A DNA stretch of 64,000 nt from Sulfitobacter maritimus (GTDB lineage: Bacteria; Pseudomonadota; Alphaproteobacteria; Rhodobacterales; Rhodobacteraceae): positions 653,214 through 717,213 of the forward strand of contig NZ_JABVBB010000038.1 in NCBI RefSeq assembly GCF_013346665.1. The letters run 5' to 3'. The position numbers and the translations under genes were made by a program. Numbering within the stretch: position 1 is the stretch's first letter; the number at the start of each line of letters is the position of its first letter. This document shows, piece by piece, positions 35,376-41,293 of this stretch. The notes below the pieces were generated by a model. It saw nothing but the letters and a program-made list of their open reading frames with translations. It was not told the origin of the DNA and did no database searches.

Positions 35376-36209
35376 TTAGAAGCTAAGGGGGTTGTTCTTC
35401 GCCAAGGCGTCAAAGTCCATCAGCAGCTTGATAAGCCCCGGCATCTGATCAAGGTAGATCATATTCGGGCCGTCGCTTGGGGCGCGGTCCGGGTCTTGGT
35501 GGGTCTCCATAAAGATCGCCGCCACGCCGATCGCCGCCGCAGCGCGGGCCATGACGGGCGCAAACTCGCGCTGGCCGCCGGAGGAGCCGCCTTTGCCGCC
35601 GGGTTGCGCGACGGAGTGGGTGGCATCCATTACCACCGGATAGCCAGTCTGGGCCATCTGCGGCAGGCTGCGCATGTCGGCGACCAGCGTGTTGTAGCCA
35701 AAGGTCGTGCCGCGCTCGGTCAACAGGATGTTTTTGTTTCCTGTGCTTTCTATCTTATCGACGATGTTTTGCATTTCCCACGGCGCAAGGAACTGGCCTT
35801 TCTTGACGTTCACCGCCTTACCCGTCTCGCCCGCAGCGAGCAGGATGTCGGTCTGCCGGCTGAGGAAGGCGGGGATTTGCAGCACGTCCACCACTTCACC
35901 CGCCTGAGCGCATTGGGCTTCGTTATGCACATCGGTCAGCACTGGCACGTCATTGGCCCGCGCCACGGATTGCAGAACCTGTAGCCCTTTTTCGATGCCC
36001 AAGCCGCGCTTGCCCGAGAGGGAGGTACGGTTGGCCTTGTCGTAGCTGGCCTTGAAGATGAACTGCGCACCAGCCGCGTCACAGGCTTCTTTCAGCACGC
36101 CCGCGATCATTTGCGCGTGGTCTTCGCTTTCCAACTGGCAGGGACCCGCGATCACGGTGAGGGGGCGGTCATTGCCGACGGTCAGATTTCCGATGCGCAG
36201 TTGGGTCAT
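35376..36209 (-). CDS. kdsA: 3-deoxy-8-phosphooctulonate synthase
   Basis: Condenses phosphoenolpyruvate and arabinose 5-phosphate to Kdo-8-phosphate. 277-residue TIM barrel with IAGPCQLESEDHA, FKASYDKANRTS and DVHNEAQC as family signatures. Kdo is needed for lipid A core and for the lipid linker of ABC-exported capsules, so its place in one operon with KpsE/KpsT-like genes is meaningful. It overlaps the KpsE-like gene by 4 nt. Confidence 0.95.
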   Translation of the reverse strand: MTQLRIGNLTVGNDRPLTVIAGPCQLESEDHAQMIAGVLKEACDAAGAQFIFKASYDKANRTSLSGKRGLGIEKGLQVLQSVARANDVPVLTDVHNEAQCAQAGEVVDVLQIPAFLSRQTDILLAAGETGKAVNVKKGQFLAPWEMQNIVDKIESTGNKNILLTERGTTFGYNTLVADMRSLPQMAQTGYPVVMDATHSVAQPGGKGGSSGGQREFAPVMARAAAAIGVAAIFMETHQDPDRAPSDGPNMIYLDQMPGLIKLLMDFDALAKNNPLSF

Positions 36210-37960
36210 GAGGTTACCTGTTCTCTAAGGATGGATGCTGTCAGGGACAACATCAGGTAGATGCCTGCAAAGATAAGAAAAGCCAATATCGTGTTTTCGA
36301 ACTTGCGCGGGTAGGTGGCCTCATCCGGCGCGACCGGGTTCACCGCTACCGTGAGGTAGCGAACCTGTCGACCAGCTTCTGTACGGGCTTGTTCTAATGC
36401 TGTTTGCGCGCTTTGCAGGACCATATCTGCGGCCGCCAAATCGGCCTGTGCAAGCTGTGCTGCGACCGCCTGTTGGGCCAGCGAATTTTCGCCTTCGGTG
36501 GCGGTGGTCATGCGCTCGCGCAATTTGGTGAGCTGTTCGCGCAGCCGGCGGACATCCCCGCGCGCACCATCGACCTTGGCCTTGTTAGGACGCTGGTTGT
36601 CCAAAAGAGCGGCCAGTTCAAGTTCCTTTTCGATCAACAAGGTCTCGTAATTGGTGATCTGTGTGCGGATAGAGGCGATCATCGCCTCTGGGTCGACGTT
36701 GTTTTCGACCTGTAGTTTGATCAGCGCCTCTTGCGCGGCACGGCGGTTCGCCTGTGCGGTTTCGAACCCTTGCAGCGCATCGGCCATGCCATCGTCGCGT
36801 TTTTGTTTGCTCAGATTGTTAACCCGCTCTTCGGCATAGGTCAGCAGGCGTTCTGAAAACTCCTCCGAGACCTCCGGATCGGCGGCGATCACTTCCATCC
36901 GGATCACCCCCTCGGTCGGGTCGTATCCGATTTTAACGTTCTTTTTGTACGCCTTGTAGGCTTCCTCATTGGTCGGACTTTCGCTCAGGCGCTGGATCGG
37001 GTCGATTGCAGGGTCCGAGTAATGCGCCCGAAAATCGGCATCCTCGTCAAGGCGAAGCATCGCGTCTTTGGATTGCAAATAGGCCTGCGTGGCGATGCTG
37101 TCGGCGCTATTGGCAAATTGCGTGGGCAGCAGCCCTCCGAATGGGCTCGCCCCACCGCCGCCTTCGTTCTGGATGATTAGAAACTGGCTTTCGGTCGCAT
37201 ACATCGGGGTAGCGATTTTGTAGAAATAATAGCCCGCCATAAAGGTTGGCAGCAGGACAAAGAAAGCCAACCGGACCAAAAGGAGCGCACCTTTCTTGCG
37301 GCGGCGGCGGGTAATGTCGCGCTGAATGTCAGAGATCTCGCGCTGGCGGCGCTCGGCAGGGCTGACGTCAGTTGAGGGAACATCGCGTCCACCTGCTGGC
37401 GTCGTCTGCGGCAGTTGAATCCGTGCGCCGCCGGGGCGGGATTTCGTAGCAGGCAGATTGGATTGCCCTGCACCTGGACCGCCGTCTTGCGGAACGACCA
37501 GTTCAAGCATGTTGGACCGTTGAAAGGGGTCGATCCCTCTGGCGCGCAGGAGCCGCACGGCGTCGAAATCCGAGGTCGGGGCCAATCCATGTTTCTGCGC
37601 CACGCGCCGGGCCATGCGCAGTTGGCGTCCGGTAAGACCCTCGCGGCGGATCGAGTCGATGTCTTGCTCGTCCGAGACTTCATTGGCTGAGGACACTTCG
37701 CCCGCACGCGATTGGTCGCCGTCAGCCTGAGGGGGGACGGTTGTGCGCGGTTCGTCTTGCGGGGGCAGGTCGCGTTTGGACGCGCTCGCGCCCGCAGGGC
37801 TGCCCGCCACCGAACGAAGGTTTCTGTCCGGCTTAGATGGCGCAGTGTCCTTGGCATCGGGTGTTTCGGCACGCTGCGCCGTTGCCGCACTGCCAGTGCT
37901 GGCCGAGGGAAGCGGGGCTTTCCGAATGCGGAATTTCCTAGCCTTGGGTTTCGTAGTCAT
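36206..37960 (-). CDS. KpsE-like capsule export inner-membrane protein
   Basis: Polysaccharide co-polymerase of the KpsE/Wzz group that links an ABC exporter to the outer membrane. 584 residues: a disordered, proline- and charge-rich cytoplasmic N-terminus (1-100), a conserved helical block (DSIRREGLTGRQLRMARRVA, about 102-150), transmembrane helix 1 at about 224-247, a long periplasmic coiled coil (380-520) and helix 2 near 560-578. The N-terminal extension is much longer than in E. coli KpsE. Overlaps kpsT by 23 nt and kdsA by 4 nt. No KpsM-like permease is seen here. Confidence 0.87.
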   Translation of the reverse strand: MTTKPKARKFRIRKAPLPSASTGSAATAQRAETPDAKDTAPSKPDRNLRSVAGSPAGASASKRDLPPQDEPRTTVPPQADGDQSRAGEVSSANEVSDEQDIDSIRREGLTGRQLRMARRVAQKHGLAPTSDFDAVRLLRARGIDPFQRSNMLELVVPQDGGPGAGQSNLPATKSRPGGARIQLPQTTPAGGRDVPSTDVSPAERRQREISDIQRDITRRRRKKGALLLVRLAFFVLLPTFMAGYYFYKIATPMYATESQFLIIQNEGGGGASPFGGLLPTQFANSADSIATQAYLQSKDAMLRLDEDADFRAHYSDPAIDPIQRLSESPTNEEAYKAYKKNVKIGYDPTEGVIRMEVIAADPEVSEEFSERLLTYAEERVNNLSKQKRDDGMADALQGFETAQANRRAAQEALIKLQVENNVDPEAMIASIRTQITNYETLLIEKELELAALLDNQRPNKAKVDGARGDVRRLREQLTKLRERMTTATEGENSLAQQAVAAQLAQADLAAADMVLQSAQTALEQARTEAGRQVRYLTVAVNPVAPDEATYPRKFENTILAFLIFAGIYLMLSLTASILREQVTS

Positions 37961-38597
37961 AGAGCTGTTTCGCTTCTTCCAAGGTGTCGAACATATGCAG
38001 TTTTCCGTTCACCAAAACACCGGCGGAACGGGCAAATTTTTCAAGCGTCTGCGCCTGATGCGAGACAATGATGATCGTAGTAGTGCGCAGCCGTTCTTGC
38101 AGGATATCGCCTGCTTTGCGATTAAATTCGACATCCGTTGTGCCGGGCATGCCTTCGTCAATGAGGTAAATGTCAAAATCAAGCGCGAGCATCAGGGCGA
38201 ATGAAAACCGCGCGCGCATGCCTGCCGAATAGGTCCCAAGTGGTTGGTCGAAATATTCACCAAGTCCGCAAAGCCAACGGCAAAAACTCTCTACGTAGTC
38301 AGGGTCGAGCCCATAAAGCCGGGCAATGTAGCGGGCATTTTCCATGGCGGAGACCTTGGTCACCACGCCGCCCATGAAGCCAAGCGGGAATGAGATGTTG
38401 CATCCCCGCCTGATCTCACCTTCATCCGGTTTTTCGAGCCCGGCCATCATGTTGATCAGGGTCGTCTTGCCGGTGCCATTGGGTGCGAGGATGCCCAGCG
38501 AATGTCCCAGTTCCACACGAAAAGACACCCGATCAAGAATGACCTTGTGCTGGGAGCCTGTCCAAAACGACTTGGACACATTTTCAAATTCCAGCAT
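37938..38597 (-). CDS. KpsT-like capsule/polysaccharide ABC transporter ATPase
   Basis: A 219-residue ATPase of the KpsT/Wzt-short type. Walker A is APNGTGKTT, the signature motif is YSAGMRARFSFAL and Walker B is FDIYLIDEGMPGTTD; this M-R-A-R signature is characteristic of polysaccharide export ATPases. It needs a KpsM-type permease, which is not in the window. TTGTCA and GTTAAC 17 bp apart upstream (38655-38683, minus) may be a weak promoter. First gene of the kpsT-kpsE-kdsA-pmm operon. Confidence 0.88.
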   Translation of the reverse strand: MLEFENVSKSFWTGSQHKVILDRVSFRVELGHSLGILAPNGTGKTTLINMMAGLEKPDEGEIRRGCNISFPLGFMGGVVTKVSAMENARYIARLYGLDPDYVESFCRWLCGLGEYFDQPLGTYSAGMRARFSFALMLALDFDIYLIDEGMPGTTDVEFNRKAGDILQERLRTTTIIIVSHQAQTLEKFARSAGVLVNGKLHMFDTLEEAKQLYDYETQG

Positions 38598-38797: not shown

Positions 38798-39604
38798 TTA
38801 GTGCAGCTTGGCCAAACCTTTGCCTGGAGCGTGGTCGTGGATATAGGTGACATTCATCAAGGCGGCCTGTGTGCGGTCGCCGTCGATATTCTGCACAGGG
38901 CCCACAGGAACGGCGCTCATCAAGCGCAGGCGGGTCATCCAACGGCTAAAGGCGGCAGGGACGATGCCGAGCACATGGCTCGCGCCCATCGAATAGGCCA
39001 CGCTGGCCATTTGGTTCATCAACATGCGCTGCACGGCGATGCGGCGATGGGCTGGCACCGCGGCAGTCAGGAAAAGCCGTGTGGCTTCCCAGATGTCGTC
39101 TCGCACCGGGGCTTTGAAAAACAACACATCTTGCGGAATGTCGGGCAGCATCCCTAGTTGTGCATCGCGCAGCATATAGCTGTAATGCGCACAGGTTGAA
39201 GTTGTGGGCATCAGCCGCACACCGCCCAGTACCTCGCCATATTCATGCAGAACGATCCAGCGGGCGCGGGGAGTGTCGTATTGGTCGAACTCCATGCCAT
39301 CCACATGGGGCAAGTCCCAGCCTTTGGCGTCGATAAATATCTCGCGACGTGCCCGTAAAAAATTAACGAACAATTCACCATGCTCGTGCATGTTCAGGAA
39401 CGACAGCGTCGTGGCTCGAATATAGGGATTTTGCCGGGCTAGAGCTTCGGGGCTGAAGGGGTCTTGTGCAGGATCTTGTGCAGTAGCAGCCTTGCGCAGA
39501 ATGCGTTTGTCCTGCTTTTCCAATGCGCTGGCGTCTTGTGGGGTCAGTTCCGGTAGAACGTCTTGCCATGATCTGCCGCGAAATGTCCTGTCTTGTAAAC
39601 TCAT
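38798..39604 (-). CDS. LuxI-family autoinducer synthase with N-terminal extension
   Basis: Probable acyl-homoserine lactone (or related) synthase, 268 residues. All LuxI invariant positions are present with family spacing: Arg86, Phe90, Trp96, Asp107, Asp110, Arg130 (GGVRLMPT), Glu173 and Arg176 (IWEATRLF). The first three match EsaI/LuxI residues 24, 28 and 34, so about 62 residues are added at the N-terminus. Between Arg130 and Glu173 it is about 14 residues longer than LuxI. No luxR lies beside it; instead a membrane histidine kinase is divergent and capsule export genes follow. The signal produced is not known. Confidence 0.8.
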   Translation of the reverse strand: MSLQDRTFRGRSWQDVLPELTPQDASALEKQDKRILRKAATAQDPAQDPFSPEALARQNPYIRATTLSFLNMHEHGELFVNFLRARREIFIDAKGWDLPHVDGMEFDQYDTPRARWIVLHEYGEVLGGVRLMPTTSTCAHYSYMLRDAQLGMLPDIPQDVLFFKAPVRDDIWEATRLFLTAAVPAHRRIAVQRMLMNQMASVAYSMGASHVLGIVPAAFSRWMTRLRLMSAVPVGPVQNIDGDRTQAALMNVTYIHDHAPGKGLAKLH

Positions 39605-39684
39605 GCTCCTGCCTCGGATCTTGTGATTATTTCCGCCTCTGTGGCGAGGCTAACTTCTAGTTGCATTAAATAGCCATAGTTCTG

Positions 39685-39700
39685 TCTCATTTACGTGAGA
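39685..39700. promoter_or_regulatory. Small inverted repeat between the autoinducer synthase and kinase genes
   Basis: TCTCA (39685-39689) and TGAGA (39696-39700) flank TTTACG in the 213-bp divergent spacer. The position suits a shared operator, but short repeats like this occur by chance. Confidence 0.25.
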
Positions 39701-39817
39701 AGATGGGTCAAGAAACGCGTCTCTGACGGGCTTAGATGCTGAAATGTCACATCTTTCGGGCGCATCCGTTGGCAGAATGCCATCTACGAGCAGACGATCG
39801 AGGAATACGAGAGCGCA

Positions 39818-41293
39818 ATGTCGCAAGAGCAAATGACCTACGGACCCTCTCACGCCCCCGCCTTGGCCGATGCCACCAAGGTCAAGCAGATGCGCGATTA
39901 TTCGCAGGTCGGCGTGAACCTCTTCTGGCAGCGTCAAATGATCTTTGCGGCGGCGATTTGCTTGTCCGCATTTTACTACGAATTGTGGTTGGCAGTTTCG
40001 ACGCTCGTTCTGATCGCGATCTCAGAAACCTATGATTACATTCTATTTTTGAACATCACCCGTTGGCGGGGGCGCAGCCCGCGTCTGGCCAAGATGTTCA
40101 TGCGAAGGGTCTATATCAGCACGGTGCTCAGCGCCGGTACGATCAGCTATTTCGCCCTTGGCATTGCCTTGCAACAAGGGGCGACGACGCATTTCTTGCC
40201 CTTGTTCTTCCTGTTCACCGCTGCGCTTTTTGCGTCGATGAACAACCATCACGTGTTGCCTGTGCTGATGCTGCGGTTGGCGATCTATGGGGCGACATTC
40301 CTGTTCATCCCGATTTGGGACATCGTGCGCACGGGTGCTAAGATCGAATCGGAACTTTGGACCCAGCTCTTTACGGTCGTATTTGTTCTCTATTTCATCA
40401 TCGATTGTTCGCGAATCTTCCTCAAGATGTACCGCACGAACATGCGCCAGCTTGAAGAGCTTAAGGCCGAGCATGAAAAGACCAAAATCGCCTTTAAGGC
40501 GAAGACGGAGTTCGTCTCGACCATCAGCCATGAGCTGCGCACGCCGATGACCTCGATCAAAGGCTCGCTGGACATGGCCTGTGCGGGTGTTTTGGGTGAG
40601 ATGACGCCTCAGATGGAAAAAGTGTTAAAGATCGCGCAGCGCAACTCGGCGCGGCTGACATCTATCATTAACGAAATTCTCGACCTGCAAAAGTTCGAGG
40701 CTGGCAAGATCAGTTTCGAGATTGAGCCTTTGGAAGTGCAGACTGTAATCGAAGATGCGATTGAATTGAACCAATCCTTCGCCAGCAACCTCAACGTAAC
40801 ACTGCGTTATGCAAAACCTTCGGAAAGTGCCGGGATTGCGACCGATGAAAAGCGGTTACAACAGGTAATGTCGAACCTTCTGTCGAATGCGGCCAAGTTT
40901 TCCCCGGCAGGGTCGACGGTTAAAGTCACCTCGCAGGTACAGGATGGCATGATGCGGATCAGCGTGATCGACGAAGGCATCGGTCTTGCTGAATCCGAGC
41001 GAGAGAAGGTCTTTGATGAGTTTTCGCAGATCGACTCGTCGGACCAGCGTGCTGTGGGCGGCACCGGGTTGGGGATGAATATCTCCAAGCGGATCATTGA
41101 GGCGCTTGGCGGGCAGATTGACTATTTCAAGAACGAAGGCGCGGGCACCACATTCTATATCGACCTGCCGTTGAACGACGGCAAAGGCAGCGAATTGGCC
41201 CAAGAAATCGCTGTGCGCGAAATTGTCAGCGGCAAAAGCGCGCTAGACGAAGCCTCAGATCAGGGGCGCATTACCGCGAAATCTGCGGCCTGA
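39818..41293 (+). CDS. Membrane sensor histidine kinase
   Basis: A 491-residue kinase: six or so transmembrane helices in residues 40-200, without a recognisable periplasmic sensor domain, then a coiled linker, a HisKA domain with His238 in TISHELRTPM, and an HATPase domain with the N box (VMSNLLSNAAKFSP), G1 (DEGIGLAE) and G2 (GGTGLGMNISK). There is no receiver domain. The start has GAGGAA 13 nt upstream. Divergent from the autoinducer synthase, so a role in sensing a hydrophobic signal is an attractive but unproven idea. The cognate regulator is not adjacent. Confidence 0.9.
   Translation: MSQEQMTYGPSHAPALADATKVKQMRDYSQVGVNLFWQRQMIFAAAICLSAFYYELWLAVSTLVLIAISETYDYILFLNITRWRGRSPRLAKMFMRRVYISTVLSAGTISYFALGIALQQGATTHFLPLFFLFTAALFASMNNHHVLPVLMLRLAIYGATFLFIPIWDIVRTGAKIESELWTQLFTVVFVLYFIIDCSRIFLKMYRTNMRQLEELKAEHEKTKIAFKAKTEFVSTISHELRTPMTSIKGSLDMACAGVLGEMTPQMEKVLKIAQRNSARLTSIINEILDLQKFEAGKISFEIEPLEVQTVIEDAIELNQSFASNLNVTLRYAKPSESAGIATDEKRLQQVMSNLLSNAAKFSPAGSTVKVTSQVQDGMMRISVIDEGIGLAESEREKVFDEFSQIDSSDQRAVGGTGLGMNISKRIIEALGGQIDYFKNEGAGTTFYIDLPLNDGKGSELAQEIAVREIVSGKSALDEASDQGRITAKSAA

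Follow-up and report, generated by a model that had tools for sequence, protein, structure and literature searches.

The window, by which we mean the whole stretch of 64,000 nucleotides analysed here from Sulfitobacter maritimus, contains a luxI gene and a membrane histidine kinase gene side by side, and the two most likely encode an N-acyl-homoserine lactone (AHL) synthase and its membrane receptor kinase. We regard the proposal as a whole, namely quorum sensing through a membrane receptor from a kinase family that accepts different synthase modules, as moderately probable, and we infer this function from the comparisons given below. LuxI signals are conventionally taught to be read inside the cell by LuxR and, if real, a LuxI-linked membrane kinase would represent a second way to read LuxI-type chemistry. 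The luxI/kinase arrangement itself is already known; what is new is its alternation with LuxR, the kinase copies linked to FeeM (Pfam PF21926, N-acyl amino acid synthase) and the repeated origin of the FeeM arrangement. The features of the pair are the following:

38798–39604, minus strand: LuxI-family N-acyl-homoserine lactone synthase, 268 aa, kinase-linked clade (PF00765, conserved catalytic residues, phmmer against the PDB)
39422–39604, minus strand: N-terminal extension of the synthase, residues 1–61 (alignment, codon changes)
39605–39817, no strand: intergenic region common to the divergent pair (conserved blocks in alignment with L002–L005)
39818–41293, plus strand: membrane sensor histidine kinase, 491 aa, proposed receptor (HisKA and HATPase_c; whole-protein homologue at 73/80 luxI loci)
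39878–40438, plus strand: six-helix membrane sensor domain, residues 21–207 (AlphaFold2 helices, invariant residues)
40499–40705, plus strand: HisKA dimerisation/phosphoacceptor domain, residues 228–296 (PF00512, E 5.3e-17)
40841–41176, plus strand: HATPase_c catalytic domain, residues 342–453 (PF02518, E 2e-28)

Both open reading frames (ORFs) named by an earlier, sequence-only reading of this DNA were recovered at the same positions and on the same strands, and its observation that luxI is accompanied by a divergent membrane kinase instead of luxR is correct: no luxR adjoins luxI among the surrounding ORFs, and the four LuxR-type proteins of the genome (PF03472 matches) are all encoded away from the pair. 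The synthase (minus strand) and kinase (plus strand) genes are separated by 213 bp (39605–39817), where a block near luxI is conserved in close relatives and the window copy has an inverted-repeat-like AACTAGAAGTT core. Polysaccharide export genes (36206–38597, minus strand; BexC/CtrB/KpsE-like and ABC ATPase) adjoin the luxI gene.

The product of 38798–39604 scores 42.6 bits against PF00765 (Pfam cut-off 24), is the sole match to this profile in a search of its own genome, and has RpaI, BurkI, LasI and BjaI as PDB neighbours, a set obtained both by phmmer and from the family profile. The sequence-only reading held that the LuxI residues are kept and, in fact, R86, F90, W96, D107, D110, R130, E173 and R176, which we take to be the LuxI catalytic positions, show no variation across 98 kinase-linked and 45 nearer LuxR-linked homologues. 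At the position after the MLRD motif, where Phe is presumably the usual residue in the LuxI family, the synthase has Gln149, as do all kinase-linked and nearer LuxR-linked homologues counted; Phe at this position is no absolute requirement for LuxI membership. The approximately 62 extra N-terminal residues noticed before correspond to an extension of about 61 residues, in which the codons differ from those of L002–L004 at the third position in 33–36 of 61 cases and at the first and second positions in 5–15, a pattern that marks the extension as coding; it evolves faster than the core. No Pfam domain was found above cut-off in the extension, and a PAS/LOV-like N-terminal domain was discarded, the matches (PDB, E 0.02–0.08; Pfam PAS_4, 0.07) not being significant. 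In the alignment, LuxR-linked sister synthases mostly begin at residue 62 of the window synthase, i.e., without the extension; as a strict mark of kinase pairing the extension was nevertheless rejected, since it is absent from several kinase-linked members (e.g., L107 and L127). The insertion before the Glu/Arg pair, to which the earlier reading also drew attention, is present but not special, because the LuxR-paired sister clade carries the same insertion, and it was likewise rejected as a mark of kinase pairing.

These features bear on whether the synthase now makes another N-acyl product instead of AHL, a change that would be marked by the extension, found in most kinase-linked members, and by Gln149. 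We consider this quite improbable, since all eight catalytic residues are retained and since Gln149 and the insertion are common to the LuxR-paired sisters, which, judging from their neighbourhood, would be SsbI, PgaI and LuxI2, for which AHL production is proven (topology B of Cude and Buchan, 2013; PMC3824088). At these sister loci, we read rpoA, rplQ and a RarA-like gene from the ORFs.

The synthase group is likely the published orphan luxI group I-delta. Cude and Buchan (2013; PMC3824088), working with 38 genomes, reported that orphan luxI genes of this group have kinase genes next to them in roseobacters such as Sulfitobacter and Ruegeria, and suggested LuxN-like signalling; the available portion of that article contains no experiment on the I-delta luxI/kinase genes. 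The window fits the arrangement of its topologies H, I and J, in which an orphan luxI, with no luxR adjoining, has an adjoining kinase gene, and differs from the canonical roseobacter LuxI/LuxR of topology B, where the sister synthases have a LuxR partner and mostly no N-terminal extension. Strains TW15 (L057) and GAI101 (L006) are among our homologous loci, as compared by strain name and not by locus tag, and the article lists GAI101 under Q1, not under H–J. Beyond that article, we find that the kinases form one six-helix family, which has a regulator and a P450 as companions, that kinase and LuxR alternate strictly, and that there are versions with FeeM and methyltransferase. Among 17 luxI solos, the accessible part of Zan 2014 (PMC3907830) names no kinase partner. 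Among the matches listed from the open-access literature, subscription journals lying outside it, we found no experimental study of a luxI/kinase pair, and nothing that connects FeeM with a methyltransferase and the kinase in this bacterial family. The kinase-linked acyl-signal circuit proposed by the sequence-only reading is the best-supported reading, by adjacency and by the FeeM links; as to its novelty, the pairing had been published in 2013 (PMC3824088), and the insertion is not diagnostic.

In the kinase, no Pfam domain other than HisKA and HATPase_c scores above cut-off and there is no C-terminal receiver domain. The AlphaFold2 model (70 sequences, mean pLDDT 83, pTM 0.62) predicts helices of transmembrane length at residues 36–53, 56–82, 88–120, 126–142, 147–172 and at the start of 179–255, ahead of the kinase core, in line with the multi-helix membrane domain without obvious ligand domain that had been described from the sequence. 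R39, D73, R153, Y157, D168 and W181 are among the membrane-domain residues invariant across LuxI-linked, FeeM-linked and unlinked copies, and the domain has one match in its own genome. The top 50 Foldseek matches listed for the kinase model are to the kinase core and none is to the membrane domain; therefore, the ligand claim has no known receptor fold behind it.

Several known systems resemble the pair. In LuxM/LuxN and AinS/AinR of Vibrio, an AHL synthase adjoins a membrane histidine kinase receptor, whereas the window synthase is of LuxI type (PF00765) and the window kinase has no receiver domain. LuxN/CqsS-type kinases are hybrids with a C-terminal receiver domain, which was not found by Pfam in the window kinase (HisKA and HATPase_c only), although a multi-helix membrane sensor joined to a histidine kinase is, by the model, common to both. 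In CqsA/CqsS and LqsA/LqsS, a six-helix membrane kinase adjoins a small-molecule synthase; to our knowledge, CqsA and LqsA are not N-acyltransferases, while the window pair combines a synthase of an N-acyltransferase family with a kinase devoid of receiver domain. The identity of LuxN to the kinases is at most 26% according to PMC3824088.

The sequence-only reading had the pairing from position only. This no longer holds, since adjacency is conserved across Rhodobacteraceae: a scan gave 198 synthase relatives and, at 73 of the best 80 of these 198 (thus not a random sample), a homologue of the kinase over its entire length, including the membrane domain, lies within the 6-kb flanks, the copy of L077 being cut by the contig end. 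The other window neighbours are retained far less (ABC 9/80, KpsE-like 4/80, permease 3/80, KdsA-like 4/80), and a capsule-gene operon was rejected as functional context, its genes not being conserved across the 80 loci. This confirms that the pairing exceeds chance, even though the membrane domain itself occurs in no more than 39 of the 295 family genomes searched. By profile, it occurs in 50 of 394 family genomes, and class-wide two of 385 genomes match, both within the same family. A neighbourhood due to chance or to hitch-hiking of unrelated genes would suit the window clade, where the pair is otherwise surrounded by polysaccharide export genes and a permease, none of them linked to signalling; nevertheless, the contrast between the kinase and these neighbours over the 80 loci leaves it a practically negligible probability. 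The arrangement was compared at 76 loci that have long flanks and a full-length kinase: it is upstream, divergent and adjacent in 27, upstream, tandem and adjacent in 14, and other in 35, with a luxI–kinase gap of 216 bp in the median and 4758 bp at the maximum; therefore, the synthase–kinase link has survived rearrangement. Distances of synthase and membrane domain are correlated (r = 0.84, 78 loci), and the partial correlation with the synthase is 0.50 for the membrane domain given the kinase core and 0.29 in the converse case, although the correlation of synthase and membrane domain can stem from vertical descent alone.

A larger set of 170 luxI-homologue loci adds 29 short loci and 60 regions hand-picked from the lower-scoring family matches listed. 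The kinase is present at 98 of these loci, LuxR at 62, both at none, only the regulator family described below at five, and none of these at the remaining five. Because 60 loci were hand-picked, the 98:62 ratio is no frequency, and the result is the zero overlap: over the 170 loci the synthase has a kinase or a LuxR, never both.

The LuxR-linked sister synthases (44–54% identity) have the insertion and the catalytic residues in common with the kinase-linked ones. The careful synthase tree comprises 80 rows (58 kinase-linked, 20 LuxR-linked and 2 regulator-only), seven long or odd rows and rows at least 72% identical to a kept row being omitted. In this tree, the nearer LuxR-linked clade (99/88) is nested among kinase-linked synthases (17-row clade, 100/100; 36-row clade containing the window, 97/92), and two partner changes are needed, compared with three in a larger quick tree, from which rows at least 80% identical were omitted. 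When rooted with the distant LuxR-linked synthases, this topology points to an early origin of kinase pairing in the group and a later acquisition of LuxR by one lineage, although the direction is uncertain because of the long outgroup branch. A one-way swap from LuxR to kinase was rejected, since the nearer LuxR-linked clade nests inside the kinase-linked ones, though here too the direction hangs on the long outgroup branch. SscI of KLH11 was excluded from the group because its approximately 80% identity to SsbI, given in PMC3907830, marks a recent duplicate.

Two further genes accompany the pair. A regulator with a receiver and a C-terminal GGDEF-like domain is present at 60 of 98 kinase-linked and 0 of 62 LuxR-linked loci, and a cytochrome P450 at 22 of 98 and 0 of 62, respectively; since the flanks are short, these counts are lower bounds. 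The GGDEF-like assignment rests on Foldseek, the first 15 matches of the model (pLDDT 78) being WspR, PleD and DgcR; Pfam matches GGDEF in only 2 of 27 members (best E 0.02), so the GGDEF signature is degenerate. The P450 of kinase/LuxI clusters (e.g., L056:7942-9309) could oxidise the acyl chain. At L203:3784-6751 and L222:340-1772, an Hpt gene comes after the regulator in the vicinity of the kinase, which hints at a phosphorelay. In strain TW15 (L057, topology J), a receiver-only regulator lies upstream of and opposite to luxI, and the membrane kinase 3.2 kb downstream. In the window clade, neither regulator nor P450 adjoins the pair. No response regulator adjoins it in the window, which counts against the proposed circuit, and the nearest candidate (C32:267915-268886) is approximately 424 kb away. 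The genome encodes four paralogues of the luxI-linked regulator family; this candidate groups with a luxI-linked regulator (SH-aLRT 97), but another CheY-like gene adjoins it.

In 394 family genomes, we counted 53 kinase copies, whose linkage was judged by coordinates against the synthase search and the fetched regions: 34 are LuxI-linked, seven FeeM-linked (G006, G050, G128, G135, G235, G272 and G751) and 12 lie beside neither synthase, three of the latter on short or cut contigs (G159, G212 and G770:C79). The 12 unlinked copies count against the proposed circuit, among them in particular the copy of G288 (L201:2177-5045), which the regulator and two LuxR-profile ORFs, one of them confirmed by Pfam, adjoin with no LuxI nearby. 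The four LuxR-type proteins of the S. maritimus genome, which could read the AHL, count against it as well. These LuxR-type proteins and the G288 copy would agree with a kinase that acts upstream, sensing another membrane or environmental cue and timing the production of an acyl signal that is read by LuxR-type proteins elsewhere, and the divergent promoters suit such local regulation. We consider this rather unlikely: kinase and LuxR never occur together at the luxI-homologue loci, as expected of alternative receptors, the membrane-domain distances follow the synthase slightly better than the kinase-core distances do, and the kinase accompanies FeeM synthases too, for which we know of no LuxR partner.

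FeeM matches of some kind occur in 208 of 295 genomes, 111 of them above cut-off, and only seven reach E ≤ 1e-33, the next being at 1e-10; six of these seven adjoin the kinase, G010 being the exception. The S. maritimus genome has no strong FeeM match (best 26.4 bits, under the cut-off of 27). A methyltransferase is present at all seven FeeM-linked kinase loci of the 394-genome sample, either soluble and SAM-type (G050, G135, G235 and G272, in the last forming a single reading frame with FeeM) or an ICMT/PEMT-like membrane protein (G006, G128 and G751). The FeeM and methyltransferase profiles gave no match at the 170 luxI-homologue loci (0/98 kinase-linked, 0/62 LuxR-linked). Nine rows of the careful kinase tree are FeeM-linked, and they fall into two clades, both at 100/100 and nested among LuxI-linked kinases: the clade with membrane methyltransferase lies within a LuxI-linked group of Ruegeria and Roseovarius (11 rows, 100/100), and that with soluble methyltransferase pairs with the LuxI-linked L012 and L023 (98/88). 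All FeeM-linked and most unlinked rows were kept in the kinase trees and the LuxI-linked rows were thinned, the careful tree omitting the long row L220 and also L194, L197 and L219. A single clade of FeeM-linked kinases is rejected (AU p = 2.3e-5), this grouping having been named before the careful kinase tree, yet after the quick one. On this test, the FeeM arrangement arose at least twice, with two methyltransferase families, which is new here.

Kinase relatives beside another enzyme set, from which chemically similar signals are expected, point to a receptor family whose signal-making partner was exchanged in evolution. The kinase family would be the receptor module, and the synthase module either LuxI, whose product, an acyl-homoserine lactone, is an internal ester, or FeeM with a methyltransferase, whose predicted product is an N-acyl amino acid methyl ester (NAME), provided that, as we infer, the methyltransferases have the carboxylate of this FeeM product as their target. 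Since the AHL and the predicted FeeM/methyltransferase product are both N-acylated amino-acid esters, this ester is most plausibly what the membrane domain reads. In the proposed mechanism, the LuxI-family enzyme makes an AHL, a step well supported by homology, probably with a long chain; the AHL would partition into the inner membrane, where the six-helix domain of the kinase would recognise the N-acyl amino-acid ester motif; and the bound state would alter autophosphorylation, the phosphate passing to an unlinked response regulator. The acceptor would most likely belong to the family with receiver and degenerate GGDEF-like domain, whose members are found with the pair in most other species.

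NAMEs are known from Roseovarius and Loktanella, and LuxR receptors were not activated by them (PMC6296433). A study of 2024 (PMC11580390) states that previous studies gave no candidate NAME synthase genes, and favours an antibiotic role; the genome note of Roseovarius tolerans EL-164 (LGVV00000000), a proven producer of NAMEs, reports two LuxI/LuxR pairs (PMC4582587). In the strains compared here, FeeM-type enzymes (PF21926) adjoin the same kinase family, together with methyltransferases, and these operons are candidates, from their gene content, for the NAME pathway of roseobacters; the tie between the kinase family and FeeM–methyltransferase operons provides concrete candidate genes for NAME synthesis and a candidate NAME receptor. 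A joint reading, which we hold tentatively and at somewhat less than even confidence, is that the six-helix kinases may be a Rhodobacteraceae-specific modular receptor for N-acyl amino-acid esters, that the FeeM–methyltransferase–kinase operons may be the missing genes of NAME synthesis and sensing, and that kinase-paired synthases may have been the ancestors of the LuxR-paired ones in topology B.

Plasmid records provide further examples: 12 have the kinase domain, ten a FeeM-like protein and five both (three of Sulfitobacter and two of Loktanella salsilacus), and the remaining FeeM-like records (four of Rhizobium and one of Shinella, 28–30% identity) have no kinase match. L. salsilacus plas2 carries regulator, Hpt, kinase, membrane methyltransferase and FeeM and, being almost identical to the locus of G006, was counted with it as one; a plasmid region of S. 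pontiacus DSM 110277 carries LuxI, kinase and P450, and one of S. faviae OXR-9 methyltransferase, FeeM and kinase. In S. pontiacus, the luxI/kinase pair has an efflux operon at its border and, in L. salsilacus, a further efflux operon comes after FeeM, as would be expected if the kinase were a membrane-stress or self-protection sensor of amphiphilic N-acyl amino acid esters and not a density sensor; the antibiotic role of NAMEs favoured in PMC11580390 points the same way. Such a role seems to us improbable, given that efflux genes were noted at these two plasmid loci only, of four inspected, and that a pure stress sensor need not follow the synthase so closely. The FeeM-type protein of L. salsilacus (L222:8135-8674) is annotated as acyl-homoserine-lactone synthase, a probable misannotation, and, on a plasmid of Sulfitobacter sp. 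OXR-159 (L223:7378-9539), an IS256 transposase interrupts the methyltransferase gene.
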